Shown here in pieces: positions 5,476 through 56,192 of a stretch of 64,000 nt of DNA. The notes beneath the pieces were generated by a model. That model was given only the letters and a program-made list of their open reading frames with translations, had not been told where the DNA came from and did no database searches. This stretch comes from an uncultured Spartobacteria bacterium (GTDB lineage Bacteria; Verrucomicrobiota; Verrucomicrobiia; Chthoniobacterales; Chthoniobacteraceae). Positions within the stretch are counted from its first letter, which is position 1, and the number at the start of each line of letters is the position of its first letter. The stretch lies in NCBI GenBank assembly GCA_903882875.1, contig CAIRYQ010000120.1, forward strand, positions 124,001-188,000, read 5' to 3'. The position numbers and the translations under genes are program-made.

Positions 5476-7617
<2,142 letters not shown>

Positions 7618-7835
7618 AAGGAGAAGGGCCATGCCCTTTGCGGGACGCAGCCCCGGACAACTCAGTCAGGATTGCGAACGCTCAACAACAGTTCACCTGC
7701 GTCACCGGTCTGCAAAACATTTTCAATCCGGCGGCATTCCCGGAAGAGACAAGCACGGACGGAGAAGCCGTACAGCAATACGAGCAATGGAATTTTTTCG
7801 AGAGCGGCACGAGCACCGATTTTTCAGACGCGACG

Positions 7836-7866
7836 AAAAAGGCCGCGCTTCGTGTGAAGCGCGGCC
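7836..7866 (-). terminator. Rho-independent terminator of the toroid-protein gene
   Basis: A perfect 11-bp stem (GGCCGCGCTTC paired with GAAGCGCGGCC) with a 4-base loop, followed on the minus strand by TTTTT. It lies 28 bases past the stop of the minus-strand gene at 7895 and ends that transcript. The remaining 220 bases up to the helicase stop hold no supported gene. Confidence 0.9.
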
Positions 7867-7894
7867 CTTGGAAAATTGGAAATGCTCCCTCGGC

Positions 7895-9424
7895 TCAGCC
7901 TTCGCGGTTGGTAGGCATGTAGCGGTAGAAGACCTCAAGCATCAGAATGCAGAGCGTGGTGCGATACACGTTCGGCGACATCGTCGCTGCGGTCTGCAAA
8001 TTGCCGACGCTGTTCGAGGCCATCGGCGGCCAGCTTCCGTCCGCGGCCTGGGCACCCACGATCTCATCCTGGAACCAGCGGTTCCATTTCGTCCATGCGC
8101 TGCCGCCGAACATGAGGCACGCCTGCGTGTGATAGTACCAAGCGTAGAGGTCCGCCTTGGGGCCCAGGTATTTTACAGGATAGTCTTTTTCGGTCTCGTC
8201 GAGCACCCACTCCATGCCCTTCTTCAACACACCCTTCTCGCCCTTCCAGAAGAGCTGGCAGAGGATGCCGACGCCGCTGAGGCTGTATTTGTCTGAGGGG
8301 CTGCGGTAGCCGTAGCCGCCTTTCGGCCCCTTGAGCCGCTCAAGGCAGGTCATCGCCTTGTCGAGGGCCTCATCCACTCCGTAGATGCCGAGTTTGCTGA
8401 GATGAGCGGCCTTCAGCGCCTGAATCTGCCAGCCGGTCACAGAAAGATCGTCCGCAGTCTTATCGTAGGAATACATCCAGCCGCCGCCCGGCCCTTGACC
8501 CTGCACGATGTAGCCGACGGCCTGCTTGAAGAGTTCGCGCACATTCACATCCTGCGTCATCGTGTAGTATTCGCCGAGCGCGTAAGTGCAGATGGCGTGT
8601 TCATAGACGCCGGGCTGGTCGAACGATTTCCGCATGCTAAGGCGGCCCTCATTGGTCGCGCCATTGGTCAGAATCCACTCGACCGCCTTGTTCACCGTGA
8701 GGCCGAACTGCTGCGATTCCGGAGTCTCGCCGTGGCCGAGGAAGCAGAGCAGGGCAAGTCCGGTCATCGCGCCCTTGTTGCCGTCGCCCCATGAGCCATC
8801 GGGACTTTGATTTTTCTGGAGCCACGCGAGGCCTTTCAAAACGGCCATTTCAGCCGCAGGCTTCATCTTGTTATCCGCCATCGCCTTTGCCTTGCCGGCA
8901 CCGACGCGGCCTTTCATTGCGCCGGGAAGACCGCCGAGCCCGCCGCCCATTTTGGCGATGTTGCCCGCGGCCTTCGTGAGATCCGAAGTGTTCGTGTTGA
9001 TCTTCACGCTCACCTGCTGCGGCGCGACCTTGAAGGTGCTCGCCGCGCTGGTCGTCTGGATGACGTCAATGGTCGGGCTGTTGATCGTCGGCGTCGGCGT
9101 CACCTGCTGCTCCGTAGGCACGGCATCGGCGGGGGACTCCGGCGGCGGCGAAAGATCCTCTGCGGTGGAAATCAGACCGTCGCCACCCTCGGCTACGAAA
9201 TCCGGCGGCTCGACCATCGCCTTGTAGAGAACGATCGATCCCATGATGATCACGATGCCGGTGTGGATCACGCAGGAGAGCATGAAGTATCGCGACTCGG
9301 CGAGCTTCTGCTGGAATCTCTGAATGAACGTGAGCCGCGGCTCGACGATTTGCTGCTGGGGTTCGCCTTCCTGTTCCGTCTGGAGAGAATCGTGCATGGG
9401 ATTGGGGTTCTCGAAATTAGACAT
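7895..9424 (-). CDS. Membrane-anchored prenyltransferase/squalene-oxidase-repeat protein
   Basis: A 509-residue protein. After a short cytoplasmic start comes one membrane helix (YFMLSCVIHTGIVIIMGSIV, about 45 to 65), then a Pro/Thr-rich linker with ESPADAVPTEQQ, and a C-terminal alpha-alpha toroid made of repeats such as GLAWLQKNQSPDGSWGDG, GPGGGWMYSYD and AADGSWPPM. These QW-like repeats are typical of squalene-hopene cyclases and prenyltransferases, but the catalytic DXDD motif of cyclases is absent, so an enzymatic role is not claimed. The ATG at 9424 is chosen because sequence upstream of it has no protein-like features and enters the kinase gene. The gene lies 56 bp downstream of the kinase on the same strand and shares its terminator, so the two probably form an operon. 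Confidence 0.82.
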   Translation of the reverse strand: MSNFENPNPMHDSLQTEQEGEPQQQIVEPRLTFIQRFQQKLAESRYFMLSCVIHTGIVIIMGSIVLYKAMVEPPDFVAEGGDGLISTAEDLSPPPESPADAVPTEQQVTPTPTINSPTIDVIQTTSAASTFKVAPQQVSVKINTNTSDLTKAAGNIAKMGGGLGGLPGAMKGRVGAGKAKAMADNKMKPAAEMAVLKGLAWLQKNQSPDGSWGDGNKGAMTGLALLCFLGHGETPESQQFGLTVNKAVEWILTNGATNEGRLSMRKSFDQPGVYEHAICTYALGEYYTMTQDVNVRELFKQAVGYIVQGQGPGGGWMYSYDKTADDLSVTGWQIQALKAAHLSKLGIYGVDEALDKAMTCLERLKGPKGGYGYRSPSDKYSLSGVGILCQLFWKGEKGVLKKGMEWVLDETEKDYPVKYLGPKADLYAWYYHTQACLMFGGSAWTKWNRWFQDEIVGAQAADGSWPPMASNSVGNLQTAATMSPNVYRTTLCILMLEVFYRYMPTNREG

Positions 9425-29669: not shown

Positions 29670-29764
29670 GGGCGTGGCTGCCTTTCTGCCCACATCCTGC
29701 CGGAACCTCCCGGCCTCCTACAAGCCCTAAGGCAGGTGGCCCTGGCTTTTCCACGGCACCTCCT

Positions 29765-29845
29765 CTCACAGTCCCCAAGTCCCCCGTCCCCTCTTCCCCC
29801 AGTCTCCTTGTCCTGCTTCCTCCTTACGGTAATGATTGCCCATGC
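29765..29845 (+). repeat. Octamer-type pyrimidine repeat with conserved tail, copy 1
   Basis: Plus-strand run of CAGTCCCC, AAGTCCCC, CGTCCCCT-type octamers followed by a tail CTTACGGTAATGATTGCCCA. The tail resembles those at 30.6 and 31.4 kb. It lies just past the 3' end of the broken vapC gene. Confidence 0.7.
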
Positions 29846-29865
29846 CCGCTCGCCCGGTCCGGCCC

Positions 29866-30240
29866 TCAGGCCTCAAACGGATTGACGAGTCGCAGCCCGC
29901 TGACGTGTTGGAAGTCGTCCACGTTCCGCGTCACCAGTTCCAGGCCATGAACGAGGGCCGTGGCGGCGATGATGGCGTCGGCCAGTCCCATCTTGCGCTC
30001 CTGCCGCAGCGCGATGGCACGCTCAATGACCACCGCATCCAGCGGATGCACCGTCAGGCGGCGAAAAAGGATGTCGAGCGCGCCATTCTCCTCCGGCTTC
30101 AGCCCCGTGAACCCATACTACCTCGATACCTCGATCCGTGTGACGCTGGCCACCGCGTTGTCCCCGGAGACCACCAGTGCCGCGATCGCCGGCGCGGTCT
30201 GGTTCGCCGCGTAAATCAGAATGTTGCTGTCCAGAAGCAT
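29866..30240 (-). pseudogene. VapC-type PIN toxin interrupted by an in-frame stop
   Basis: ATG at 30240 opens MLLDSNILIYAANQTAPAIA with the first PIN aspartate, and 40 codons later meets TAG (30118 to 30120). The same frame then continues YGFTGLKPEENGALDILFRR to GLADAIIAATALVHGLELVT and the final NPFEA, with the other PIN acidic residues. An 8-bp direct repeat (ACCTCGAT twice, 30120 to 30135) abuts the stop. Leaving out nine bases, codons S-R-stop, gives RIEVYGFTGL, which aligns without a gap to the usual VapC sequence. The toxin is therefore broken by a small duplication; the antitoxin upstream is intact. Confidence 0.8.
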
Positions 30241-30243
30241 CGC

Positions 30244-30504
30244 TCAATCCCGGCCCGGCAACGGACGGTCTTTGCGGATTTCCCGCTGCCACGCCACAGG
30301 GTCGGTGATTTCTTTGAACGTGCCCATCTCCCGCAATTTCTTGAGCGCGGCCAGTGCTGTCTCCCGCGTCGGTCGTTCGCATTCCTCGGGCGCGGCTTCG
30401 ATCGTGGCTGTGACTTTCAACTTGGAATTGCGCAACTCTGCCGGCAGCGGCAGGTGCAGCGTGCCATCGGCATCGGCTTCCAGGATCGCGGTGATCGTGC
30501 TCAT
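30244..30504 (-). CDS. Antitoxin paired with the broken VapC
   Basis: An 86-residue protein with a short beta start (MSTITAILEADADGTLHLPL, PAELRNSKLKVTATIEA) of the looped-hinge/AbrB-like kind, then a charged helix and tail (ALAALKKLREMGTFKEI, RKDRPLPGRD) that would wrap the toxin. It stops three bases before the vapC start codon, the normal antitoxin-toxin order. Intact, unlike the toxin. Confidence 0.75.
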   Translation of the reverse strand: MSTITAILEADADGTLHLPLPAELRNSKLKVTATIEAAPEECERPTRETALAALKKLREMGTFKEITDPVAWQREIRKDRPLPGRD

Positions 30505-30540
30505 GCAAAAACACTAGCCCGCCGCGTATCCTTCGTAAAG

Positions 30541-30655
30541 CCGCGACTCATCTCCCAATCTCCCCATCTCCCTGTCTCCAAGTCCCCCGCTCTCCTTGTC
30601 CAGTCCACTCCTTCCGGTAGTGATTGCACATCCCCGCACCTTCGCAGGCGGACGC
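30541..30655 (+). repeat. Octamer-type pyrimidine repeat with conserved tail, copy 2
   Basis: Octamers (TCTCCCAA, TCTCCCCA, TCTCCCTG, TCTCCAAG) run into a conserved tail of about 65 bases (30587 to 30651; for example GTCCAGTCCACTCCTTCC). The tail is almost the same as at 31361 to 31427. It lies between the vapC antitoxin and the next toxin-antitoxin pair. Confidence 0.8.
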
Positions 30656-30745
30656 CGGATCGCCGGGAACGAGGGGAACTGCGAAAATCAATCTCCACCC
30701 AGCGCCTATGTCCCTTGGCCCTTCCAGCCCCCGGGACAGGGCGGT

Positions 30746-31015
30746 TTATCGTTGGCGGAGCAAGGCGTCGTATTCGGAATGATGCCCGATCCACACCCAC
30801 ACGACCTTCTCCCCCTTGCGACGCGCGAGCGCACGGTATTGCCGTCCCACCCGCACCGACCACAAATCCTCGAAGCCTGCCAGTGGCTTGAAATGCAGCG
30901 AGACATGCCACGGATCCTTGCTCCACAGCGCATACCCCTTGTCCGCCAGGCGGCGGATTTCCTGCGGCAGTGCCGCATAGCCCTTCCAGAACCGCGCCGT
31001 GGCCTGCGACTTCAC
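30746..31015 (-). CDS. RelE/HigB-type toxin
   Basis: An 89-residue protein with the small RelE-like fold: FWKGYAALPQEIRRLADKGY helix pair, then strands WHVSLHFKPLAGFEDLWSVR, GRQYRALARRKGEKVVWVWI and GHHSEYDALL. The Arg-rich strand and final His/Tyr are typical for ribosome-dependent mRNA interferases of this group. It follows its antitoxin by two bases and is probably translated from the same mRNA. Confidence 0.85.
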   Translation of the reverse strand: MKSQATARFWKGYAALPQEIRRLADKGYALWSKDPWHVSLHFKPLAGFEDLWSVRVGRQYRALARRKGEKVVWVWIGHHSEYDALLRQR

Positions 31016-31017
31016 GG

Positions 31018-31233
31018 CTACATTCCCCGAGGCCCCTCGCTCAAAGTCCCGCTGCCGGCCGAATCATCCGCCTCCCGAACGAGGAAATCCAGCCGCCCCG
31101 CCTTCGCATCCGCCTCCATCTGCCGGTCCCATGCATCCTCAAACGCAATCTCCTGCAACCGGGCGAGGAACTCATCCTTTTCCTCCTCGGTGAAGTGCTT
31201 CACCGCATCAATGACTTCGGCGACAGTGCTCAT
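31018..31233 (-). CDS. Antitoxin paired with the RelE/HigB-type toxin
   Basis: A 71-residue acidic helical protein, MSTVAEVIDAVKHFTEEEKD at the start and a flexible Gly/Ser tail (SAGSGTLSEGPRGM). Its N terminus resembles that of the antitoxin at 22709 (MSTLAEIENAARQL). It is first in the pair and only two bases from the toxin start. Confidence 0.78.
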   Translation of the reverse strand: MSTVAEVIDAVKHFTEEEKDEFLARLQEIAFEDAWDRQMEADAKAGRLDFLVREADDSAGSGTLSEGPRGM

Positions 31234-31281
31234 GATGGGCGGGATTCTGCCTCACCCAAGCCGGTGGCGCAAGACGGATCT

Positions 31282-31432
31282 CCCCATCTCCTCTTCACCC
31301 CGTCCCCCAGTCCCCAAGTCTCCCCGTCTCTCCGTCTCCCAGTCTCCCCGTCCCCTCTTCCCCCGCTCTCCTTGTCCAGTCCACTCCTTCCGGTAGTGTT
31401 TGCACATGCCCGCACCTGCGCAGGCGGGGGGC
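31282..31432 (+). repeat. Octamer-type pyrimidine repeat with conserved tail, copy 3
   Basis: The longest copy: at least eight octamers such as GTCTCCCC, GTCTCTCC and GTCTCCCA, then the conserved tail 31361 to 31427, nearly identical to that at 30587 to 30651. It stands between an antitoxin gene and the CRISPR leader. Confidence 0.85.
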
Positions 31433-31601
31433 AGGATCGTCGAGAACGGGGAGAACTGCGGGCAATCAGCATGTCCCTCAGTTCCGCGCTCTCGCCGCCC
31501 TGTTGTTCGCAAAAATTTTCGCGCTGTCTGCCGAACGCTGCGCGTTCATCAGCCATCGCTCATGGCGCGAACGCGCCTATTCGCTTTACACTGCGCTCGT
31601 G
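31433..31601 (+). promoter_or_regulatory. Probable CRISPR leader
   Basis: The 169 bases before the first repeat contain an AT-rich patch (TTCGCAAAAATTTTCGC), a palindrome GGCGCG-AA-CGCGCC at 31564 to 31577 and a weak -10-like TACACT at 31587. Its position follows from the inferred rightward crRNA direction; no strong -35 box is visible. Confidence 0.45.
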
Positions 31602-32231
31602 GCTTTGCCTTGAATCCAATCCCCGGCACAGCAGAGTTATTAAATGGAAAGGGAGCGGGGAGTTTCCGCTTTGCCTTGAATCCAATCCCCGGCACAGCAG
31701 AGTAGAGCGGCCGCTCGGGAGTGAGAGCGAGGAGCTTTGCCTTGAATCCAATCCCCGGCACAGCAGAGTTTCGCTTACCCAGAAGACGGTGATATCCTTG
31801 CTTTGCCTTGAATCCAATCCCCGGCACAGCAGAGTGTGGCTTGCCGTCCTCTGCCGCGGCGCGCAGCTTTGCCTTGAATCCAATCCCCGGCACAGCAGAG
31901 TCGCGAACCGCTCGACGAATGGCACCGCGCCGCTTTGCCTTGAATCCAATCCCCGGCACAGCAGAGTTCGCCATGCGCTTGCGCGTGATGGACTTCAGCT
32001 TTGCCTTGAATCCAATCCCCGGCACAGCAGAGTGCCCGGTGAAAAGGTGATGGCGCACAATCAGCTTTGCCTTGAATCCAATCCCCGGCACAGCAGAGTA
32101 CGACCGCTCCCACGCAGCCGTCCGCGCCAGCTTTGCCTTGAATCCAATCCCCGGCACAGCAGAGTAAGGGCGGCGAATATGACGAAGTGGCGAGCGCTTT
32201 GCCTTGAATCCAATCCCCGGCACAGCAGAGT
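31602..32231 (+). CRISPR. Type II-C CRISPR array, 10 repeats, 9 spacers
   Basis: Ten identical 36-base repeats start every 66 bases (31602, 31668, 31734, 31800, 31866, 31932, 31998, 32064, 32130, 32196), separated by nine spacers of exactly 30 bases. Each repeat begins GCTTTGCCTTGAATCC and ends GCACAGCAGAGT. The tracrRNA anti-repeat at 36982 to 37003 pairs with the first two thirds of this plus-strand repeat, so crRNAs are read left to right, towards cas2. No repeat is degenerate, not even the last, so the old end of the array cannot be recognised by decay. No spacer was seen to match elsewhere in the window. Confidence 0.98.
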
Positions 32232-40154: not shown

Positions 40155-40215
40155 GGGCCTGCCTTGGGGATGGCTGGAACATTGGTCGCGGAACGGGGCG
40201 GAGGCTCGGTGGCCT

Positions 40216-40369
40216 CAGCCGGGATTCTCGGCCAGCGTTCCCGAGTCTCCCCATCCTCAGCCGGGATTCTCGGCTGGCGTTCCCGAGTCTCCCCATCCTC
40301 AGCCGGGATTCTCGGCTGACGTTCCCGAGTCTCCCCGTCCTCAGCCGGGATTCTCGGCTGGCACCGGGA
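40216..40369 (+). repeat. 42-bp tandem repeat, three and a half units
   Basis: Units start at 40216, 40258, 40300 and 40342. Each begins with the imperfect palindrome CAGCCGGGATTCTCGGCTGG and ends CGAGTCTCCCCATCCT. Because 42 is a multiple of three all frames repeat; the plus frame would give PQPGFSAGVPESPH units, but no start codon with support exists. Confidence 0.9.
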
Positions 40370-42217: not shown

Positions 42218-42796
42218 GCTTTGTAAGCGCACTAATCGCTCACCACACCAGGGCGGCGTCCGCGCCATGATTGATAGCGCGGCCTTGCTGGGCTGGCTTG
42301 TGTCGGGCCGTTGGCCCGGAGTTCGCCGCGTGCAGGACACGCGCGGGAGCGGTTCCACCAAAACGGCAGCCGCACTTGTGAGAGCGCGGCCACGGCGTCT
42401 CCACGGAAAGATGCCCGCGTTCTCACGAACGCGGCTCCGGGATTTCCTGAACCGCCGTGGGAAAATGATCCGAGGATCGCGAGGCTCGCCGAAGCATGCT
42501 TGTCGGATTGCGTGACAATCGGAGGGAGAATTGAATTGGGAAGGCAGGAAATCATGCTCAGAGGGACGGAAGCTCTCCTTTCCTGCCTTCCTAATTTGTC
42601 TGCTTGTCAACCAAACGGATAAGCAGGCGCCGGAGCCCGAAGCGGCCCGATTTGGATCGTTCTGATTTTCCACACAAAATCCCTTTCCTCCCCTCGCCCG
42701 CTGTGGCATACAGCGCGCCCATTTTGCCCGGAAGGAACGCTCCCGCGCCTCGCCGACGCAATGTTTTCAACCCTGATTCACACAACACACATCTCT
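42218..42796. other. 580-bp intergenic region with several strong hairpins
   Basis: No gene is supported. Strong inverted repeats: CGGGCC-GTT-GGCCCG at 42304 to 42318; CCGCGTTC-TCAC-GAACGCGG at 42415 to 42434; and a perfect 13-bp pair GGAAGGCAGGAAA / TTTCCTGCCTTCC at 42539 to 42551 and 42579 to 42591, followed by TAATTT. The last may end the collagen-like gene's transcript. The ppdK promoter should lie in the final 200 bases, but no clear boxes were seen. Confidence 0.55.
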
Positions 42797-45580
<2,784 letters not shown>

Positions 45581-45604
45581 GCCGCGCTGCCTGAAACAAT
45601 CACG

Positions 45605-45636
45605 AAAGCCGCCCCGCGAAACCGGGGCGGCTTTTT
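45605..45636 (+). terminator. Rho-independent terminator of ppdK
   Basis: Stem GCCGCCCCG paired with CGGGGCGGC (45608 to 45631) over a 6-base loop, followed by TTTTT. Confidence 0.93.
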
Positions 45637-45677
45637 CGTAGGTGCGAAATGCGGTTCACACGCGATAATGGGGTGTG

Positions 45678-47480
45678 ATGAATGCGCAGGCTATTCCTCC
45701 CCTCGATCACGGTGTGATCGGTAATGGGCGAGTGTTGGCGCTTGTCTCGCCGACCAGCGCGGTGGAATGGCTGTGCATGCCGCGGTTTGATTCGCCGTCG
45801 GTTTTCGCCCGCATCCTCGACCGGGAGAAAGGTGGCACCTTCATCATCGAGCACGCGTCGGGCGAAGTGCGCGGGAAGTCCGAATACATCACGAACACCA
45901 ACGTGCTCCGCACCGTCTTCGAGGTCGGCGATGCGTCGTGGGAGGTGATTGATTTTGCACCACGGCTGCCGGACGGGATGGAAATCCGCGTGCCCTTTGA
46001 GTTGGCGCGGCTGGTGCGTCCGCTGCGCGGCCATCCGCGGCTGCGCGTGCGATTTGATCCGCGGCCCGACTACGCCCGCGCGGAGGTGCAGATGATGCCG
46101 GCAGGCGACTGCCTGCTGATCACCGGGGCTGCCGAGCCGCTGCGCCTTTTCACGGATGTGCCGATGCCGTACGTCACGGGCAGCCGCGAGTTCGCCTTGG
46201 ACAAGCCGATGTTTTTTTCGCTCGCCTGTGGCGGCACGCGTCAGCGCATCACGCTCTGGCATGTGCTGGAGCAATTCGAGCGCACGGTCGAAGGCTGGCG
46301 GCGATGGGCGATGAGTTGCGCGCTGCCGACCTTTGCACCCGACACCGTGCTGCGCTCGGCGCTCGTGCTGAAGCTGCACCAATATCACGACACCGGCGCG
46401 ATCATCGCGGCGGCGACGACGAGCATCCCGGAGGCGATGGGCACGCTGCGCACTTGGGATTACCGCTATTGCTGGCTGCGCGATGCGGCGTTTGTCGTCG
46501 AGGCGCTGCGACGGCTCGCGCACTTGCGGGAGGGCGAGGAATTCCTGCGTTACCTGCGCGATGTCGCGGAGGCCGGGCCGCTCCAGCCGCTCTACGGAAT
46601 CGGCGGCGAACGCGATCTGCCGGAGGAAACGCTCGGGCACCTGAGCGGTTTCGGCGGCAACGGCCCGGTGCGCATCGGCAACCAGGCGGCGGAGCAGCGG
46701 CAGAATGATCTCATGGGCGAACTTATCCTCTGCCTCGAAACGCTGCTCACCGATCCGCGGCTCGCGCATCTGCGCGGCGGCGATTATTTTCACCTCGTGC
46801 AGCGGCTGGTGGAGGAAGCCATTGCCGCTGCCCCCACCAACGACACCGGCATCTGGGAATTCCGCCAGACGCCGCGACCGTACACTTTTTCCCGTGCGAT
46901 GTGCTGGGTCGCGATCTCGCGCGGTGCGCGGCTGGCGAGGCATCTCGGCGAGACCGTCCATGCGTCGCGCTGGGAAAAGATCGCCGATCAGGAAAGGGAG
47001 ATCGTGCTGACCCGCGGCTACAACGCCGCCAAGGGTTGTTTCACGCAGGTGCTCGACGGCCTGCATCCGGACGCGTCGCTCCTGCTCCTGCCCACGCTCG
47101 GCATCATTGACGCGAACGATCCGCGCTTCGTTTCCACCGTGAATGCCTACGAGAAAATCCTCGCACCGGACGGCCTGATGAAGCGCTACGCCGCACTGGA
47201 TGACTTCGGCGAGACCACCAGCGCGTTCACGATCTGCTCGTTCTGGTGGTGCGAGGCGCTGGCGCTGATGGGCCGGCTGGACGATGCGTGCGAGCTGTTT
47301 CACCGCCTCGAACGCCACTCGAATTCGCTCCGCCTTTTCTCCGAGGACATCGAGCCGTCCACGGGCGCAATGCTCGGAAATTTCCCGCAGGCATACACAC
47401 ACGTCGGCCTCATCCACGCAGCCATGACCATTTCCGAACTGCTCGAAGCGCGCGACGGCAAGGTCCGCGCATGGGCTTAA
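45678..47480 (+). CDS. Glycoside hydrolase family 15 protein (glucoamylase/trehalase type)
   Basis: A 600-residue GH15 enzyme. The N-terminal beta domain starts IPPLDHGVIGNGRVLALVSP and WLCMPRFDSPSVFARILD; the (alpha/alpha)6 barrel shows TSIPEAMGTLRTWDYRYCWL, RDAAFVVEALRRL, and the acid and base regions near GIGGERDLPEETLGHLSGF and SFWWCEALALMGR. Such proteins in bacteria act on trehalose or alpha-glucans. The gene lies 12 bp before otsA-otsB, and trehalase-type activity would fit that partner. ATG at 45678 is used; a GTG directly before it is possible. Confidence 0.92.
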   Translation: MNAQAIPPLDHGVIGNGRVLALVSPTSAVEWLCMPRFDSPSVFARILDREKGGTFIIEHASGEVRGKSEYITNTNVLRTVFEVGDASWEVIDFAPRLPDGMEIRVPFELARLVRPLRGHPRLRVRFDPRPDYARAEVQMMPAGDCLLITGAAEPLRLFTDVPMPYVTGSREFALDKPMFFSLACGGTRQRITLWHVLEQFERTVEGWRRWAMSCALPTFAPDTVLRSALVLKLHQYHDTGAIIAAATTSIPEAMGTLRTWDYRYCWLRDAAFVVEALRRLAHLREGEEFLRYLRDVAEAGPLQPLYGIGGERDLPEETLGHLSGFGGNGPVRIGNQAAEQRQNDLMGELILCLETLLTDPRLAHLRGGDYFHLVQRLVEEAIAAAPTNDTGIWEFRQTPRPYTFSRAMCWVAISRGARLARHLGETVHASRWEKIADQEREIVLTRGYNAAKGCFTQVLDGLHPDASLLLLPTLGIIDANDPRFVSTVNAYEKILAPDGLMKRYAALDDFGETTSAFTICSFWWCEALALMGRLDDACELFHRLERHSNSLRLFSEDIEPSTGAMLGNFPQAYTHVGLIHAAMTISELLEARDGKVRAWA

Positions 47481-47492
47481 TTTTCATGACCA

Positions 47493-49760
47493 ATGCCACG
47501 CTACCTCATCGTCTCAAACCGGCTCCCCGTCACGGTTGTCACCGCTGGTGACGGCTACGAGCTGAAGCCCTCGGTCGGCGGCCTCGCGACCGCGATGACC
47601 GGGCTCGGCGGCGGCGAACATGACACGCTCTGGATTGGCTGGCCGGGCGACACCACCGCGCTCAGCGAAGAGATGCGAGAGCGGCTCGATGGCGAATTGC
47701 GCGGACGCGGCCTCGTCCCGCTGCATCTCTCCGTGGCGGACGTGGAGGGCTTTTACGAAGGCTTCTCAAATGGCGTGCTGTGGCCCCTTTTCCACTATCA
47801 GATCGAGCGCGTGAACATGGACGCGTGGCGTGACTGGGAGGCTTATGAATCCGTGAACCGCCAGTTCGCCGAGGCTGTCGCCGCGCAGTGGCGCGAAGGC
47901 GACCGCATCTGGATTCACGACTACCACCTCATGCTCGCGCCGGCGATGATCCGGAGGCTCCTGCCAAAGGCCCGCATCGGATTTTTCCTCCACATCCCGT
48001 TTCCCTCGCTGGAAGTTTTCCGCACGCTGCCCTGGCGGCGCGAAGTGGTCACGGGGCTGCTGGGCGCGGATCTCATCGGCTTCCACACCTACGGCTACCA
48101 GCGGCACTTCGCATCGTGCCTGCTGCGCATGATGTCGCTCGATGTCGTCGTGGATGAATTTCACTGGCAGGGCCGCACCGTGCGGCTCGGCAGCTTCCCG
48201 ATCAGCATAGACACGGCGGACTTCATCACCCGCGCCAGCGATCCGGCCACCGAGGAGGCCGTGGCGAAAATCACCGGAAAGACGCCGGGCGTGAAGCTGC
48301 TCCTCGGCGTGGACCGGCTCGACTACAGCAAGGGGCTGCCGCAGCGGTTCCTTGCGATCGAACGGCTGCTCGAGATCGATCCCACGCTCGCGGGCCGCTT
48401 CCGTTTCGTGCAGATCGCCGCGCCCTCGCGCACGAATGTCGAGACCTATGCGCAGTTCCGCCGGCAGCTCGACGAACTCGTGGGCCGGATCAACGGACGC
48501 TTTTCCACCACCGACTGGGCTCCGATCCAGTATCTCTACCGCGCCACGCCCATCGAGGAAATCATCCCGCTTTATTGCGCGGCGGACGTGATGATCGTCA
48601 CGCCGCTGGCCGACGGCATGAACCTCGTCGCCAAGGAATATCTCGCGTGCCGCATTCACGACGACGGCGTCCTCGTGCTGAGCGAATTCGCCGGCGCCGC
48701 GTGGGAACTCGGCGAGGCCGTCCACGTCAATCCCTACAACGTCCACCAGACCGCGCTCGCCCTCCAGCAGGCCATCCTCATGGATCCCGCCGAACAGCAC
48801 GCGCGCATGGTGCCGATGCGCCAGCGCATCCGCAAATGGGACATCCACGCGTGGGTCGGCAGCTTCATCGCCGCCATGGAAGCAACCGCGCGTCCGCAGC
48901 GGGAAACTGCGGAGGACACGCCGCCGTCGCCCGCGGACATCGCACTCATGCACTCCGCGCGGAGGCTGCATCTGCTGCTCGATTACGACGGCACGCTCGT
49001 CCCATTTGCCGCGCGGCCCGAGCTGGCCGAACCCGATCCGGCGCTGCTCGATCTGCTCCGCGCGCTCGCGTCGCACCCGCGGCTCAGCGTCCACATCATC
49101 AGCGGTCGCCCGCGCACGGTGCTCGATGGCTGGTTCGGCAGCCTGCCCCTCGGGCTCCACGCCGAGCACGGCTTCTGGAGCCGGTTCGCCGGAGGCAAAT
49201 GGCATGCGAACGCCGTCGTGAACCAAAGCTGGAAGGAACGCATCCGCGCGGTGATGGAAGACTTCGCCGCATGCACGCCCGGTGCCTTCGTCGAGGAAAA
49301 GGAGGCCGCCCTGTGCTGGCACTACCGGCTCGCCGATCCCGAGCTGGGCCGGAACCAGAGCCGCGAACTCGCGCTCCACCTCACGAGCTTCCTCGCGAAC
49401 CTCCCCGTCGAAGTCCTGCGCGGCCACCGCATCGTCGAAGTGCGCCAGCAGGGTGCGAACAAGGGCATCATCCTCCCCTCCATCCTCACCGGGATCATCG
49501 CGTCCCCGGAGGAATTCGTGATGGCCTTCGGCGACGACCGCACCGATGAGGATCTCTTCGCCGCCCTGCCCGAGCACTGCATGGCCATCAAGGTCGGCGA
49601 CGGCCCCACCCACGCCACCCGCCGGCTCCGCAATCCCGAAGCCGTCCGTAAATTCCTCCGCGACCTCGCGCAGGGCAACGATCCCGCAAAGACCGCAGCA
49701 CGCGCCGCGACATCAAGCTCGGCACCTGCGGCGAACACGGCGGCGATCCGGACAGCGTGA
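47493..49760 (+). CDS. Fused trehalose-6-phosphate synthase/phosphatase (OtsA-OtsB)
   Basis: A 755-residue bifunctional enzyme. Residues 1 to about 460 are a GT20 synthase ([65 protein letters not shown]). Residues about 480 to 735 are a HAD phosphatase ([50 protein letters not shown]). Together they make trehalose from UDP-glucose and glucose-6-phosphate. The normal fold ends near [12 protein letters not shown]; the last 20 or so residues ([20 protein letters not shown]) are read out of frame from a copy of the ppdK tail, so the C terminus has been replaced. Probably co-transcribed with the GH15 gene. Confidence 0.95.
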
Positions 49761-49879
49761 AATTCTTCCACCGCGTAGGCCTGAACTACGTGAGCTGCTC
49801 GCCCTTCCGCGTGCCCGTCGCCCGCCTCGCCGCCGCCCAGGCCGCGATCGAGGAAACGCGCGCCGCGAAGAAGAAGTAA
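49697..49879 (+). pseudogene. Tail of a second ppdK gene, joined to the end of otsA-otsB
   Basis: 61 codons matching 45398 to 45580 with about 12 differences, most of them silent third-position changes. In its own frame it reads [20 protein letters not shown] to [12 protein letters not shown] and a stop. The first 64 bases double as the end of otsA-otsB in another frame. Confidence 0.93.
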
Positions 49880-49941
49880 CGCGGGCGCTGCTGCCCGTAG
49901 CCAAGCGAAACCGGACAGGAGTGTCCGGTTCACGAATCACA

Positions 49942-49974
49942 GCCGCCGCGGTCGAAATGCCGGGGCGGCTTTTC
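49942..49974 (+). terminator. Terminator-like hairpin after the ppdK remnant
   Basis: GCCGCCGCGG and CCGGGGCGGC pair imperfectly over a 9-base loop, then TTTTC. It resembles the ppdK terminator and was probably copied with the tail. A second hairpin ACCGGACA-GGAG-TGTCCGGT precedes it at about 49911 to 49930. Confidence 0.65.
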
Positions 49975-49975
49975 T

Positions 49976-50053
49976 GTCTGTCTGCTAGGAATTTGCTTTC
50001 GCGCACGCCGCACCGGAAACGGTCCGAACGCGGCCGGGCGTCGGGGAGTGAGG
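49976..50053 (+). repeat. 78-bp direct repeat, left copy
   Basis: Begins GTCTGTCTGCTAGGAATTTG and ends CGGGGAGTGAGG. It matches 51109 to 51186 at 77 of 78 positions. The two copies bracket the outer-membrane protein gene. Confidence 0.95.
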
Positions 50054-50099
50054 AGGCTGGCTCGGTGCTCGGCGTGGGAGACTACGCGCAGTTGCGGCA

Positions 50100-50297
50100 G
50101 CTCCCGCAGCTAAGAGCCTGTCGTTTGGCAAAGGCTTCAATGATGCGGCGGTTAAGGCGCTCGATGACATTGACATCGCCGCGTCTGATGTTGCCGCATT
50201 GAAACAAAAACTCCCAAAAACCGACGTGCGCCTGACCGCACCGACGGAGCAGAACAGGAAACGCATCGAAGCGCTTTTCAAAACGGCCGGGAAATGA
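50100..50297 (+). pseudogene. C-terminal fragment of an unassigned protein
   Basis: A frame with normal protein composition runs AAKSLSFGKGFNDAAVKALD, DIDIAASDVAALKQKLPKTD, and on to RKRIEALFKTAGK and a stop. It has no start codon and upstream runs into the 78-bp repeat. The LxxLKQKLPxTDV pattern resembles the end of leucine-rich-repeat proteins, but this is uncertain. Between its stop and the OMP gene nothing else is seen. Confidence 0.5.
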
Positions 50298-50364
50298 CGC
50301 ATCACGTCCTCCCCTCCCCGCATCATGCCCGGCGGGCTCGCCGCATGGTCTTTTGCAAGGAAAC

Positions 50365-51093
50365 TCAGAAGGTGAGCTGCACCCCGAGATAGGTCAGGCA
50401 TTGCGGGCCATTCTGCCCGCCTTCGTGGATGGCGCGCCCCGCGGAACCGATGAGCGCGACGTGCTCAGTCGTCTTCCAGTGAAAGCCCACGTTGAACACG
50501 ATGTTGTCGTTCCGAAACCCCGTTGCGGAGATGGCGTGCAATTCGCCCAGCAGTGAAAATTTTTCGGTGATTTCCTGCTCAAAGGCGGAACCCCACAGCA
50601 GGCCGTTCCCGCCGTATTCATTGATGAGATAACCCACCTCCTCGAAGAGCGTCGTTTTGCCGAATTTCTTCTGCACCTCCAGCGGAAGGATCATCTGCCA
50701 GCCGCCCGGCACCAGCCCGCGCCGGGTGGAGCGGAGGGAATCGTTCATCGAAAACTGGGGATACGTGGACACCTTCCAATCCTCCTCGCTGTTGCCGATG
50801 AACCGCCACTTCACGCCAAACAGCGAATCGCCGACGCCACCCAGCGGCTTGCCCTTGCCCGTGCCGACCAGCCAAGGCTGCTCGTACTTCAGTTGCACAT
50901 TCTCAAAGAGGCCGAAGTTCAGATCGATCAGCGGCGTGTTGAGGTTCCACTCCGAACCCTGCCGGGCGCCGATGGCGGCGATGTTGATTTCCCATTCGTG
51001 CAGCTTTGGCGTGTCGGGGTCGTCCGTCAGCAGCGGCGGTCCCGCCTTGGCGGTGGCGATGAGGGAGAGAACTATCAGACCGGCGGTTCGCAT
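50365..51093 (-). CDS. Predicted outer-membrane beta-barrel protein
   Basis: A 242-residue exported protein: signal peptide MRTAGLIVLSLIATAKA, then PPLLTDDPDTPKLHEWEINI and alternating amphipathic strands (GLFENVQLKYEQPWLVG, GDSLFGVKWRFIGN, FSLLGELHAISATGF, NIVFNVGFHWKTTEH), ending in Phe (YLGVQLTF), the usual signal for outer-membrane insertion. PPLLTDDPDTP is typical of a family annotated as transporter or outer-membrane beta-barrel; the substrate is unknown. The gene and its flanks lie between two 78-bp direct repeats, so this 1.1-kb unit may have moved or been duplicated as a block. Confidence 0.82.
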   Translation of the reverse strand: MRTAGLIVLSLIATAKAGPPLLTDDPDTPKLHEWEINIAAIGARQGSEWNLNTPLIDLNFGLFENVQLKYEQPWLVGTGKGKPLGGVGDSLFGVKWRFIGNSEEDWKVSTYPQFSMNDSLRSTRRGLVPGGWQMILPLEVQKKFGKTTLFEEVGYLINEYGGNGLLWGSAFEQEITEKFSLLGELHAISATGFRNDNIVFNVGFHWKTTEHVALIGSAGRAIHEGGQNGPQCLTYLGVQLTF

Positions 51094-51108
51094 GTTTCTC
51101 TTTCTTCA

Positions 51109-51186
51109 GTCTGTCTGCTAGGAATTTGCTTTCGCGCCCGCCGCACCGGAAACGGTCCGAACGCGGCCGGGCGTCGGGGAGTGAGG
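51109..51186 (+). repeat. 78-bp direct repeat, right copy
   Basis: Partner of 49976 to 50053, one mismatch, same orientation, 1133 bases apart. It begins 16 bases beyond the start codon of the outer-membrane protein gene. Confidence 0.95.
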
Positions 51187-51717
51187 GGCGGCAGAAGTTG
51201 GAATAATGAAGGAAGAAGGATGAATTCGGAGTTCCACGCGTGACCGGGAGAGAAATTTCCGGCCGCGGGATGTGATCGCAACGAGCTTCATGGGCTCAAG
51301 CGTTGTTCGCGAGAATGATCATCCGCGCCGCCTTGCCGAGCATTTTTTCGGCGGCGGTCTTGAAGCGAGACTTGAGGCGGGAAGGCGGGCGGCGTTCGTG
51401 TAGCGTTCGCACCACTTGAGCACGATGCCACGGTCGAGGACGTCGAGGTGGCTGATGAGCAGGCCGGTGAGTTTGCCGACTCTTTCGAGCGCGTATCGGA
51501 GCAGGACTGCATCGGGGTGTCCGCGTCGGAACCGGCCCCGCCAGCCGTCGGCCACTCCAGTGGGTCCCGCGGGTGCGGGAGACGCCTTTGCGGGCGCGCT
51601 CGCAGTCGCCAACGCCAGCGGGATGCCGCAGTAACGCACAAGAATCCCCATCTTGCGCAAGATCGCGCAATTCTCAGACGGGTTTGAATCCCGTACGCGC
51701 TGCCAGTTCCTTTCGGG
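51187..51717. other. Gene-free or degenerate region before dnaX
   Basis: About 530 bases without a convincing gene. On the minus strand, pieces such as RLKSRFKTAAEKMLGKAARM and GLLISHLDVLDRGIVLKWCE read like protein but lie in different frames, which suggests a decayed gene. At 51678 to 51705 ACGGG-TTTGAAT-CCCGT followed by ACGCGCTGCCA resembles a tRNA T-arm and 3' end, but no matching 5' half is present. Confidence 0.4.
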
Positions 51718-53475
51718 CTACGCCGGCTGCACTTCGGCGCGGAAAATTTCGAGCGCCTTGCGGATCAGCGGGTCGCGCTTGAATTCCTCCATCGGATCGA
51801 GCTTCGGTGCTGGCGGCGGCTGCGCGACGGGCGTGACCGTGATTCCCTCGCGCACTGCGAGCGAGACGTTCACTTTGCGCCCGAGGATTGCGCCCGCGGC
51901 GCTTGCAAGGAATGCGCCGTGATCCTTTTCGAGAAAGTCTTTCGAGAATGACTGCTCCGGCGGAAAGCCGATCTGCGCTGTTGCGTCCCCGATGCGGATC
52001 AACGCGCCGCCCTCCAGCCATCCGCTGATCAACGGGCGATCCCGGCGCACCGTCTCGACGAGCAATTTCCAAAATTCCCCGTCGGAAACTTTCACGGCAG
52101 GCGCGGGCGCGGGCGTTTCGGATTTCGCCGGTGCTTTCGGAACGGACGCGGGCCCCGGCTCGGAAACCTTTGGCGTTTCAACGGTGCGCGGCTTGGAAAT
52201 CGGAGCCGGTGCGGATTCGGGTTCCGCCACGCGCGCCGTCGGCACCGCTGATTGCGGGCGCGGGGCAGGCGTCAGCGATTCTCCGCGCGGCGCGGCAGGC
52301 TTCACCTGCTGCGTGGCTGCGGGCAGCGGCTGGCCTCCGCGCAGCGCGGCGAGCGTGTCGAGCACCTCGGTGAGCGTCGCGCTTTGCAAAATTTGGATCG
52401 CACGGATCGCCGCGACCTCGAAGTGCATCTTCTTGTTCACGGCCCATTTCATCCGGCCTTCCGCGGCGGCGAACTGCTCGATGAGGTCGAGCACTTTTTC
52501 CATCGGCACACGCGCGGCCTGCTCCTGCATCGCGGCCACGGCCTCGGGCATCCACTCGTCGCCGAGACCGTCGGGATCGGCCTTCAGCACGAGGAGGTTT
52601 CGCAGGTGCGTGATGAGTTCGCTCATCAGCCGCGCGAGATCTTTTCCTGCCTCGGCCTGCTCGTGGATTTTTGCGAGCGCGGCGGAAGCGTCGGCGGAGA
52701 TGATGGCCTCGCACAGCGCCGTGACCGTGTGCGCACTCGTGAAGCCGAAGACGCTGAGCACATCCGCCTCGGTGATCGTGTCACCGCAAAATGCGACGAG
52801 CTGATCGAGCATGGATTCCGCATCGCGCAGCCCGCCCTCCGCGCCGCGCGCGACGGATTCGGCAGCGGCGGGCTCAAGCGTGAAGCCCTCGTTTTGCGCG
52901 ATGAAAAGGAGGTGCTTCGTGATCGTCGCGGTCGGGATGCGCTTCAGATCGAACCGCTGGCAGCGGCTGAGGATCGTAGTCGGCACCTTCTGCACATCGG
53001 TCGTCGCGAAAAGGAATTTCACATGCGGCGGCGGCTCCTCGAGCGTCTTGAGCAACGCGTTGAACGATCCCGTCGAGAGCATGTGGACCTCGTCCACGAG
53101 ATAGATTTTGTAGCGCCCTTTCGCCGGCACGTAGTTTACGCGGTCGAGGATCAGGTCGCGCACCTTGTCCACCTGTGTGTTCGATGCGGCGTCGAATTCG
53201 ATCACGTCGAGCGATCGCCCCTCGGCGATCTCGCGGCACACTTCCTCCTCGGGATCGAAGTCCGCCTTTGGCCCGCCCGTGCAGTTCAGCGCCTTGGCAA
53301 AGATGCGCGCCGTCGAGGTCTTCCCCGTGCCGCGCGGTCCGACAAAAATGTACGCGTGCGCGATGCGGTTTTGCTCGATGGCATTGCGCAGCGTGCGCGT
53401 GATGTGCTCCTGGCCGAGGACGTCGGCAAAAGTCTTGGGGCGATACTTGCGTGCGAAAACCGTGTAGCTGCTCAC
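51718..53475 (-). CDS. dnaX: DNA polymerase III subunits gamma and tau
   Basis: A 585-residue clamp-loader subunit. It opens with GTG as VSSYTVFARKYRPKTFADVL, then Walker A (GPRGTGKTSTARIFAKAL), Walker B with DEVHMLSTGSFNALL, sensor 1 (LFATTDVQKVPTTILSRCQ) and domain III to about residue 360. A Pro/Ala-rich linker (SEPGPASVPKAPAKSETPAP) leads to a tau-type C domain. The zinc module seems degenerate: only two cysteines (LNCTGG and EVCREI) remain where four are usual. GTG at 53475 is chosen as the conserved start; upstream sequence in frame is not protein-like. No programmed-frameshift slippery run for a separate gamma form was noticed. Confidence 0.95.
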   Translation of the reverse strand: MSSYTVFARKYRPKTFADVLGQEHITRTLRNAIEQNRIAHAYIFVGPRGTGKTSTARIFAKALNCTGGPKADFDPEEEVCREIAEGRSLDVIEFDAASNTQVDKVRDLILDRVNYVPAKGRYKIYLVDEVHMLSTGSFNALLKTLEEPPPHVKFLFATTDVQKVPTTILSRCQRFDLKRIPTATITKHLLFIAQNEGFTLEPAAAESVARGAEGGLRDAESMLDQLVAFCGDTITEADVLSVFGFTSAHTVTALCEAIISADASAALAKIHEQAEAGKDLARLMSELITHLRNLLVLKADPDGLGDEWMPEAVAAMQEQAARVPMEKVLDLIEQFAAAEGRMKWAVNKKMHFEVAAIRAIQILQSATLTEVLDTLAALRGGQPLPAATQQVKPAAPRGESLTPAPRPQSAVPTARVAEPESAPAPISKPRTVETPKVSEPGPASVPKAPAKSETPAPAPAVKVSDGEFWKLLVETVRRDRPLISGWLEGGALIRIGDATAQIGFPPEQSFSKDFLEKDHGAFLASAAGAILGRKVNVSLAVREGITVTPVAQPPPAPKLDPMEEFKRDPLIRKALEIFRAEVQPA

Positions 53476-53889
53476 GCCGCGAAGTCTGTGCGGTGCAACC
53501 CCGCGAGCAAATGGAAAAATGCGCAGCGCATTGCCGTGACGTTTCCGACACCACGAATTTACTGTGGCACCATTGCGCCGGACGCGTGGGCCGCCCACCT
53601 TGCACAAGAATCCCGATGGCACCTCAAATCAAAAACCACCAGATGTCCGCTGGCCCGGCTCCTGCTCCCATTGGTTCGCTTTCCATGAAAAAGCGCACTT
53701 CATCCGCAACGCACTCGACGAAGGCCGCACCGTCCGCCGGCGCAATGCTCGACTCCATCGTGAAGCTCGCCTACCGCCGCCATGCCCGCGGACGCGTCGC
53801 GCGTGCGGCGGCGGCCTCGTGCCTCGGAAATTGATCCGCGGATCCGTTCCGCGCTTCCCTTCCCCGCTCAGGACGCTACACGTCGCCCC
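53476..53889. other. 414-bp region between dnaX and proC
   Basis: Divergent promoters for dnaX and proC should lie here, but no clear -35/-10 pair was found. A 72-codon plus frame from ATG 53616 to 53834 (MAPQIKNHQMSAGP to AAAASCLGN) is open, Ala- and Ser-rich and unlike any family known to me; it is not called as a gene. Confidence 0.4.
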
Positions 53890-54738
53890 ATGAAACTTGG
53901 ATTCATCGGCGGCGGCAAGATGGCTGCGGCCCTCATCAAAGGCGTCCTCAAGTCCGGCATCTGCACGCCGGCGGATGTCACTGTCAGCGATGTCCACGCT
54001 CCCGCTGTGGAGAAATTGCGCGGCGAAACCGGCGTGACGATCGCGGCGTCCAACGCCGAAGTCGTGGGCGCGAGCGAAGTCATCATTCTCGCCGTAAAGC
54101 CCGGCGACGCGCTCGCCGCGATCCAGGGCCTCACCGCGCAGCAGATGGAATCCTCGATGCGCTGGGCGTGGCAGGGCGGCGGTGGAAAGACGAGCAAGCT
54201 CCTGATTTCCATCGTCGCGGGCCTTTCGCTGGCGACCCTCGAAAAAGCCGCCGGGGAAAAACTGCGCATCATCCGCGTGATGCCAAACACGCCCGCACTG
54301 ATCCTCGCAGGTGCGTCCGCATTTGCCACCGGCACGCTCGCGACCGACGCCGACGCGGACATTGCGCAGAAAATCTTTGGCGGCATCGGCATCGCGCTCC
54401 GCGTGAAGGAAAGCCTGCTTGATGCCGTCACCGGCCTCAGCGGCAGCGGTCCCGCATACGTCTACACGATCATCGAGGCACTTGCCGACGGCGGCGTGCT
54501 CATGGGCCTCCCGCGCGATCTCGCGCTCCAGCTTGCGGCAAAGACCGTCGCCGGTGCGGCGGAGATGGTGTTGCAGACGGGCCTGCACCCCGCGGTGCTC
54601 CGCGATCAGGTCGCGAGCCCCGGCGGGACAACCATCGCGGGTATCGAGGCCATCGAATCCGGCGGCCTTCGCGCATCGCTCATCGCAGCCGTGCGCGCCG
54701 CATCGGAGCGTTCGGCGACGCTCGGCTCGGGAAAATGA
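53890..54738 (+). CDS. proC: Pyrroline-5-carboxylate reductase
   Basis: A 282-residue NAD(P)H-dependent reductase for the last step of proline synthesis. Rossmann start MKLGFIGGGKMAAALIKGVL, then VIILAVKPGDAL, the loop IRVMPNTPALILAGASAFA and the helical dimer domain with DAVTGLSGSGPAYVYTIIEA and LRDQVASPGGTTIAGIEAIE. A short extra loop (MRWAWQGGGGKTSK) interrupts the region before LLISIVAGLS. The ATG at 53890 is the natural family start. Its stop overlaps the following TPR gene by four bases. Confidence 0.96.
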   Translation: MKLGFIGGGKMAAALIKGVLKSGICTPADVTVSDVHAPAVEKLRGETGVTIAASNAEVVGASEVIILAVKPGDALAAIQGLTAQQMESSMRWAWQGGGGKTSKLLISIVAGLSLATLEKAAGEKLRIIRVMPNTPALILAGASAFATGTLATDADADIAQKIFGGIGIALRVKESLLDAVTGLSGSGPAYVYTIIEALADGGVLMGLPRDLALQLAAKTVAGAAEMVLQTGLHPAVLRDQVASPGGTTIAGIEAIESGGLRASLIAAVRAASERSATLGSGK

Positions 54739-55433
54739 AACGCACGGCATGCGTCTGCATGGTGTCGCTCGGTGCGCTCGCACTTTCGCCCGCAGCACCT
54801 CCGCCGATCCCGAAAGCCGTGCCCGCGCAGCCGACCTACCGCTTCGCGACCCCGGTGCCGATGATCACGCAGGAGCACCAGACCTCGCAGCAGCTCTACG
54901 CCGCGGCGGTGAAGGATTTTTTGACAGGCAATCTCGAGACCGCAAAAGCCGGCTTCCAGAAAGTGCTCGCGATATCCCCGGAGAATCCTCCGGCGCTCAT
55001 CAATCTTGCCCTCATCGCACAGCGTCAGGATCGCAGCGATGACGCCGCAAAATTCCTGCGCCGCGTGATCCAAAAGGACACCGCCAACGCGACCGCCTGG
55101 CTCCTGCTCGGCATCGGCGCCTACGAGCACAATGAACTCGAGGCCGCGCACGCACACCTTGCGCAGGCCGTGCTCTACGCGCCGGCCGACGCCCGCGCGC
55201 ACCAGTATCTCGGCGCGACATTCGCACGGCGCGGCTGGTACAGCGCGGGCGAGGACGAGCTGCGCCGCGCGCTGGAACTCGATCCGAAGTCCGCGGACGC
55301 CCACTACAATCTCGCTGCGATCTACATGGAGCACGTCCCGCCCTCGGTGGAACTCGCGCGCCGGCACTACGTCCGTTCACTCGAACTCGGCGCACCGCCC
55401 GACGAGAAGCTCGCCGAGCGGATCGGAAAATGA
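54735..55433 (+). CDS. Exported tetratricopeptide-repeat protein
   Basis: A 232-residue protein with a signal peptide (CMVSLGALALSPAAPPPIP) and about four TPR units, e.g. AAVKDFLTGNLETAKAGFQK, PALINLALIAQRQDRSDDAA, ATAWLLLGIGAYEHNELEAA and AHQYLGATFARRGWYSAGED. It should act as a protein-protein adaptor outside the cytoplasm. Coupling to proC through an ATGA overlap suggests joint transcription, but no functional link to proline synthesis is apparent. Confidence 0.88.
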   Translation: MKRTACVCMVSLGALALSPAAPPPIPKAVPAQPTYRFATPVPMITQEHQTSQQLYAAAVKDFLTGNLETAKAGFQKVLAISPENPPALINLALIAQRQDRSDDAAKFLRRVIQKDTANATAWLLLGIGAYEHNELEAAHAHLAQAVLYAPADARAHQYLGATFARRGWYSAGEDELRRALELDPKSADAHYNLAAIYMEHVPPSVELARRHYVRSLELGAPPDEKLAERIGK

Positions 55434-55520
55434 AAGACGCGCGTCGAAATCCAAGCAGTCAAATGATGCGCCCGCCGAAGCGACCATACACAGACGCATA
55501 CGTTGAGATTCCCATCCGAT

Positions 55521-56192
55521 TCACTCACTCGCTTTCAGGATGCGGAAACTTCGGAATCGCGCCTGGCGCACCGGCTTTTCCTGCCCGTAGCCGGACTGAA
55601 AGCCGACGAGCGGTTCCTTGGTGGAGGTCGGGATGGCGCATTCGCCGATGGGTTGCCAGGGCTCCTTTTCGGAGGAGCGATACTGGGCGGTGGCCTTCGT
55701 GCCACGCAGGGTGAGCCTCAGCCAGACGCCGCTGTCCTTGTAATCCGTTTCACCGGGGCCATGGATGGGTTTGCCGTCCTGCTGGTGAAAGACAAAGATG
55801 CACTGCTTGCCGGTGAATTCCTTGTTGAAAGCGACGAAGGTGTAGCCATCGAAATAAACAAGGATGCCCGCGTGTTCCCATTGCCCCTTGGGCGAGTTGT
55901 CCATGTGGACCTCGACGGTGAATCCGTCCTTGAGGGAAGCGGGGGCCTTGCGCAGGAGCGTGTTCTGCCCGCTGTTCTCTTTCTGCCAATAGGAACCGGG
56001 CAGCGTGTCAATGATCAGCGATCCATCGGCGATGCGCCAGTGCTCCGGCCGTTCCCGGAGCCATTGCCAGCCTTCACCGAGCTTGCCGGAGAAGTTATCC
56101 TCGAACAGGACTTCCGGCGTGTCCGCCGCGGCAACCGGCGTTCCTGAGAGTGCCACCAATGTGAAGGCAAGAGCGAAAATCCGGAATTTCAT
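55521..56192 (-). CDS. Exported concanavalin-like (DUF1349/DUF1080-type) protein
   Basis: A 223-residue exported protein. Signal peptide FRIFALAFTLVALSGTPVAA, then one jelly-roll domain: LFEDNFSGKLGEGWQWLRER, WRIADGSLIIDTLPG, GILVYFDGYTFVAFNKEFTG, VWLRLTLRGTKATAQYR and VGFQSGYGQEKPVRQARFRS. The FEDNFSG-GEGW opening and the WLRL strand are usual for DUF1080/DUF1349 lectin-like domains, which bind or cut carbohydrate. ATG at 56192 precedes the signal peptide. Confidence 0.85.
   Translation of the reverse strand: MKFRIFALAFTLVALSGTPVAAADTPEVLFEDNFSGKLGEGWQWLRERPEHWRIADGSLIIDTLPGSYWQKENSGQNTLLRKAPASLKDGFTVEVHMDNSPKGQWEHAGILVYFDGYTFVAFNKEFTGKQCIFVFHQQDGKPIHGPGETDYKDSGVWLRLTLRGTKATAQYRSSEKEPWQPIGECAIPTSTKEPLVGFQSGYGQEKPVRQARFRSFRILKASE

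Follow-up and report, generated by a model that had tools for sequence, protein, structure and literature searches.

The window analysed here, a 64,000-nucleotide stretch of contig CAIRYQ010000120.1 from an uncultured Spartobacteria bacterium, contains two direct repeats that bracket a short block of DNA. Positions 49976-50053 and 51109-51186 lie on the same strand and agree at 77 of 78 sites, just as the initial annotation had described them, and the match extends to 82 nt at 98% identity (49972-50053 and 51105-51186) with a spacing of 1133. When searched against the set of fetched loci, copy 2 finds copy 1 with a BLAST E value of 9e-36; the likeness of the pair is confirmed as far beyond chance, and the sequence also recurs as a family. 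A covariance model of the repeat unit, built from 19 copies, places copy 1, a short form, at 49978-50058 (plus strand, 92.8 bits) and copy 2 at 51111-51191 (plus strand, 96.0 bits). Copy 2 alone is followed by a second module (51192-51361, plus strand), a multi-copy sequence recognised by its identity to copies elsewhere in the genus, and the resulting long form, unit and second module together, is about 72-76% identical to such copies over 230-256 nt. Between the long form and dnaX, positions 51392-51707 are a mosaic of other dispersed repeats, in which the stretch 51678-51707 is found in several genomes and resembles a tRNA 3' end, with no tRNA found by ARAGORN. Further repeats of the window, at 31600-32231, 40213-40362, 29755-31427 and 40064-40166/57810-57912, comprise a nine-copy array of 66-nt period, an array of 42-nt period, C/T-rich dispersed repeats and a 103-nt inverted pair.

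The block between the two units holds one gene and one gene remnant. The gene, at 50365-51093 on the minus strand, is an ORF of 242 aa with its start codon 18 nt from copy 2. Searches of Pfam, NCBIfam and PDB sequences with the ORF itself returned no match, and its structure model is unusable (mean pLDDT 33). Two relatives of its product, at 33% and 31% identity, score 25.7 bits (over the cut-off of 22) and 18.8 bits (under it) against PF13557 (Phenol_MetA_deg), an outer-membrane beta-barrel family, and the product is accordingly likely a beta-barrel outer-membrane protein. The gene called in the initial annotation is thus present, and its outer-membrane identity is likely by way of PF13557 in the relatives. 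The ORF was matched in three of 40 genomes of the family, its own and two of other genera at 30-33% identity, and is absent from nine congeners. The remnant, on the plus strand at 50157-50279, is 46% identical (E 1.4e-4) to residues 252-292 of a 293-aa LRR-like protein of the same genome (L013 7646-8527), and so bears out the truncated C-terminal fragment reported earlier; the full-length relative sits on contig C7 between two units. No transposase was recognised among the block ORFs of at least 60 aa, with the family scan covering the 242-aa ORF, again in keeping with the first description. The block would be accessory DNA between two units, made of one lineage-specific gene and one gene remnant.

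Upstream of copy 1 lies a detached copy of the 3' end of a PEP-utilising-enzyme (PPDK-like) gene (49688-49878, plus strand), 92% identical to positions 45389-45579. The parent gene (42761-45580) matches PF02896 and PF00391, and the two copies of its 3' end surround a GH15 gene and a trehalose-phosphate synthase/phosphatase gene, the latter present in one of ten genomes of the genus. This GH15/trehalose-phosphate region looks like a lineage-specific insertion at the 3' end of the PPDK-like gene. A second PPDK-like 3' fragment, with a terminator and a unit, is found elsewhere in the genome on contig C116 (L009, about 7460-8270), where the unit segment lies about 0.7 kb from a C-terminal fragment of a tyrosine recombinase.

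The repeat is common. The covariance model lists 23 matches in the window's own genome among the best 150 candidates scored, and the block with its flanks, used as a BLAST query, finds 20 places there, mostly the unit. The ten genomes searched within the genus hold, at E<=1e-6, at least 21 (G000), 1 (G009), 94 (G004), 2 (G003), 6 (G001), 34 (G008), 3 (G005), 3 (G006), 10 (G002) and 7 (G007) units, so that the number within the genus spans 1 to at least 94. Across genus, family and order the unit was matched in 16 of 38 genomes; all 16 belong to the window's family, where 24 genomes were searched, and none to the 14 genomes from outside it. A degenerate pattern of the unit's left half finds 36 stretches in the named genome collection, all titled Verrucomicrobiota and some titled Chthoniobacter or Chthoniobacteraceae, and none in viral contigs. 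The unit is also present in metagenome-assembled genomes titled Prosthecobacter debontii and Akkermansia muciniphila, labels that may be wrong. Literature searches, including one with the core string, yielded no published description that we recognised as this repeat.

Each unit spans about 80 nt and contains a single imperfect hairpin, whose predicted pairing holds in 88.6% of cells over 75 copies. Units fold modestly better than shuffled sequences (z of -1.3 and -2.1), and the hairpin is without clear covariation, its score being equalled by 43 of 500 shuffles. At the units of positions 44000-56000 Rfam gives no match up to E 1, and a known RNA family was rejected on this ground. Of 142 units, 99 have CTGC close to the left end, 73 have CTG close to the right end and 52 have both, which is no more than suggestive of a target site. 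Neither terminal inverted repeats nor a target duplication could be established, nor could an unpaired GTAG or CGTC end tag, although CGTC does occur in the unit consensus.

The units are clustered and share a polarity. In the own genome 13 of the 23 matches lie less than 4 kb from another, and all eight neighbouring pairs have the same orientation; random placement gives a mean of 0.34 neighbouring pairs and a maximum of 4 in 10,000 trials. The other ten matches have no second unit within 4 kb, although contig ends may hide some. Across the fetched loci, 67 neighbouring pairs lie within 5 kb of each other, and in 61 of them the two units point the same way. Same-orientation intervals with an ORF of 100 aa or longer number 37, and in 35 of these the longest ORF runs against the units. 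Because these loci were chosen for carrying units and are neither independent nor a random sample, binomial p-values on orientation are indicative only. For polarity relative to genes, 146 strong units were considered, of which 50 were set aside for lying within an ORF of 150 aa or more, many such ORFs probably being spurious in G+C-rich DNA, and the remaining 96 were used. Where a unit has codirectional ORFs on both sides, it opposes transcription in 36 cases and follows it in 6, with a median of 41 nt to the next start codon, and unit polarity tracks the adjacent genes rather than genes more than 2 kb away or GC skew. A replication-strand bias was considered and rejected, GC skew in unit orientation being positive in 31 of 59 loci (p=0.33). 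Two further candidates were likewise rejected: tRNA hot spots, with nine tRNA genes in all distributed over 8 of 60 loci, and a recurrent tyrosine recombinase, with four motif matches in the unit loci vs two in an equal length of sequence elsewhere.

This polarity and the proximity to start codons are what one would expect if the unit were maintained by selection as a regulatory leader or structured RNA for the genes downstream of it. Further in its favour, several ORFs of G004 (L182, L183, L186 and L190) start inside a unit and have similar N-termini (MTHISTPAD...RCGGRE), and the unit may therefore supply leaders or N-termini there. We nevertheless consider such a role very improbable, in view of a copy number that ranges so widely within one genus, the equal association with the gene on either side of the unit (57 and 57), the lack of an Rfam match and of clear covariation described above, and the position of copy 1 in the window, which sits 3' of a gene fragment and not ahead of a start codon.

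The same arrangement invites comparison with integrons. Chromosomal integron arrays are rows of one gene and one repeat with fixed polarity, and the unit clusters are likewise rows of gene and repeat with fixed polarity. The unit could accordingly be an integron-like site-specific recombination site, with gene and unit forming a cassette and the window block standing in a short array. The single orientation of the clusters and the one main opposing ORF per interval speak for it, as does the fact that neighbouring units are overall no more alike than distant ones (0.752 vs 0.743, p=0.42), as expected of independently acquired modules. Also in its favour, the outer-membrane protein gene has no counterpart in nine congeners, as noted, and the 273-aa gene in the first interval of a cluster on contig C122 has no listed match in seven relatives. 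Against this, the attC boxes, RYYYAAC and GTTRRRY, occur in none of 75 units, and the own genome has a separate attC array. That array, on contig C117 (L059), consists of a full-length integron integrase over the TIGR02249 cut-off and at least five attC-like sites with the boxes CTAAC and GTTAG; it is ordinary in its boxes and has no unit. Among nine integrase loci scanned, eight (L059-L066) are without a unit, and in the ninth (L067) some 12 kb or more separates the units from a fragment of an integrase; no integrase accompanies the unit arrays. Furthermore, 17 loci with relatives, mostly distant, of the outer-membrane protein or the LRR-like protein carry no unit, solitary units are common, and an element with a transposase, described below, ends in a single 80-nt unit. 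We therefore give little credence to an integron-like site. As for the suggestion that the block is a small mobile cassette, that the unit is common and that 10 of 23 matches are solitary is evidence against a dedicated mobile cassette, which is not supported, and nothing shows the block moving as one.

The likeness of neighbouring units bears on how clusters arise. Local tandem duplication as the source of all clusters was rejected, since neighbours are overall no more alike than distant units. Above-average likeness is seen in the window pair (0.94), in a pair on contig C77 (0.98) and in the averages of G007 and G020. The window pair can be set beside the C116 paralogue: unit 1 and 285 nt to its left, which comprise the PPDK-like 3' fragment and a terminator, are paralogous to the C116 segment (88% over 372 nt), the units agreeing at 69 of 78 sites and the left flanks at 249 of 287 columns, and the homology ends at the right edge of the unit. 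Unit 1 and its left flank are thus about 12-13% diverged from the C116 paralogue, whereas the window units are 1% apart, which points to recent copying or homogenisation of the pair. Judged by this divergence, the pair would be best explained if one unit was recently copied from, or converted by, the other.

Homology stops at or inside a unit in four locus pairs, of which the window and C116 are one. L044 and L045 share 97% identity over 1.5 kb of right flank, the left flank not being common to both; between L183 and L190 homology ends inside the unit, and between L194 and L220 it begins inside the unit. Such breaks may reflect recombination between units or movement of unit-bounded DNA. They are consistent, as is the 77/78 identity of the window units, with a pair that arose by homologous recombination, either of the block together with one unit or by local duplication, at a unit already present, the units serving as passive homology. 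However, the L182/L186 homology breaks off some 45 nt beyond one unit and some 200 nt away from a second, L045 and L217 keep both flanks, and recombination leaves unexplained the spread of the unit, its uniform orientation and the transposase-bearing form. As an account of the pair it is rather unlikely. The possibility raised at the outset, that the block is a result of recombination, may hold in view of the recent copying or homogenisation of the pair and of the four homology breaks at units.

A site for excision had also been proposed. RecA-type recombination over 78 near-identical bp is possible; an empty site was not found. None of eight dnaX loci from relatives contains the unit, and G004 and G003, the two closest relatives, lose synteny at the dnaX stop codon. 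The C122 neighbourhood gives no empty site, the contigs of relatives being too short to show one; the gene beyond the C122 array is conserved in G003 and G004 without a unit upstream. A locus of G005, G007 and G001 was rejected as an empty site, the difference being a deletion inside the element in G007.

In two relatives an element of approximately 1.19 kb has the unit as one of its ends and carries the gene of a RAYT-like Y1 (HUH-type) transposase. L194 (G004:C394) and L220 (G003:C588) are 86% identical over 1191 nt starting inside the unit. To the left of this segment the two loci are unrelated: one has a formate-THF ligase gene, the other a PPDK-like 3' end with terminator. At the right end, L220 and a third copy, L198 (G004), terminate at one and the same L194 position, and relatives from G008 and G009 have a similar right terminus. 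The element encodes a protein of about 338 aa on the strand opposite to the unit (in L194 at 2484-3497, minus strand), with its stop codon 3-4 nt from the unit in both L194 and L220. This protein is over the PF01797 cut-off, contains HFH and YIDLNPVRA, and scores 56.9 bits against NF047646 (REP-associated tyrosine transposase), below the cut-off of 80. A unit adjoins the transposase, on one side only, in both of the close copies in which the unit side is visible, two further close copies ending at a contig edge on that side. There are counter-examples: no recognisable unit adjoins four transposase relatives that are 49-62% identical, 30 other Y1-transposase loci carry no unit, and the transposase subfamily was not seen in the own genome despite 21-23 units there, the only PF01797 matches being three others in shorter ORFs (174-202 aa). 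G003 has two transposase copies, yet only two units are listed for it at E<=1e-6. Diverged units beside the distant transposases were sought and rejected, the scores being no better than those of shuffles. Weighing the L194/L220 element and the PF01797 match with these counter-examples, we regard the unit as a likely, although not proven, REP-like non-autonomous relative of the transposase element.

REPs are 20-40 bp long, fall into GTAG and CGTC super-families and are often found in opposite orientation, and both REPtrons, in which a REP is combined with a RAYT transposase, and REPs between unidirectional genes have been described by Di Nocera et al. (2013, PMC3733652). The unit resembles them as a short hairpin repeat beside genes, many copies lying between unidirectional genes, in its lone, dimeric and clustered copies, and, for the two close copies with a visible unit side, in a RAYT-like Y1 gene that the repeat adjoins. 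It differs in its length of about 80 nt and in having no established tag, in mostly direct, gene-spaced clusters where typical REPs form dimers (PMC3733652), in a strong bias against transcription, and in a cognate transposase that was not seen in the window's genome. MITE/ERIC/RU-type repeats are similar in being dispersed, non-coding and variable in copy number with long and short forms, and the unit departs from them in having no established terminal inverted repeats or target duplication.

We propose that the pair in the window are probably two members of a REP-like repeat that is dispersed and non-autonomous, occurs in a Chthoniobacter-like lineage of Verrucomicrobiota and has a likely partner in a RAYT-like transposase. 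As two of about 20 dispersed copies, the window repeats are most likely ordinary selfish DNA rather than the termini of a dedicated gene cassette. Solitary units would be spread by a RAYT-like transposase through single-stranded DNA, as has been proposed for REP/RAYT systems, and would settle next to genes, mostly opposed to their transcription. The near-identity of the window pair would come from recent short-range copying or gene conversion, and the pair, once formed, may be a substrate for RecA-dependent deletion. A more elaborate version, in which units act as mobile ends, would have a RAYT-like Y1 transposase pair the left end of a unit with the right end of its successor and carry the intervening gene along as single-stranded DNA, building direct arrays of single-gene modules with neither integrase nor attC. 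This fits the uniform orientation, the gene polarity, the mostly unrelated neighbouring units and the homology breaks at units, and we hold it to be distinctly unlikely.

With the pair read as copies of a dispersed REP-like element, a striking direct-repeat block becomes one site of a lineage-wide repeat family with a named candidate transposase. The genus, with 1 to at least 94 copies per genome, offers a natural series in which to see how REP-like DNA expands and why it is clustered against transcription. Finally, if it were true that units move the genes between them, this would be a new route to gene arrays.
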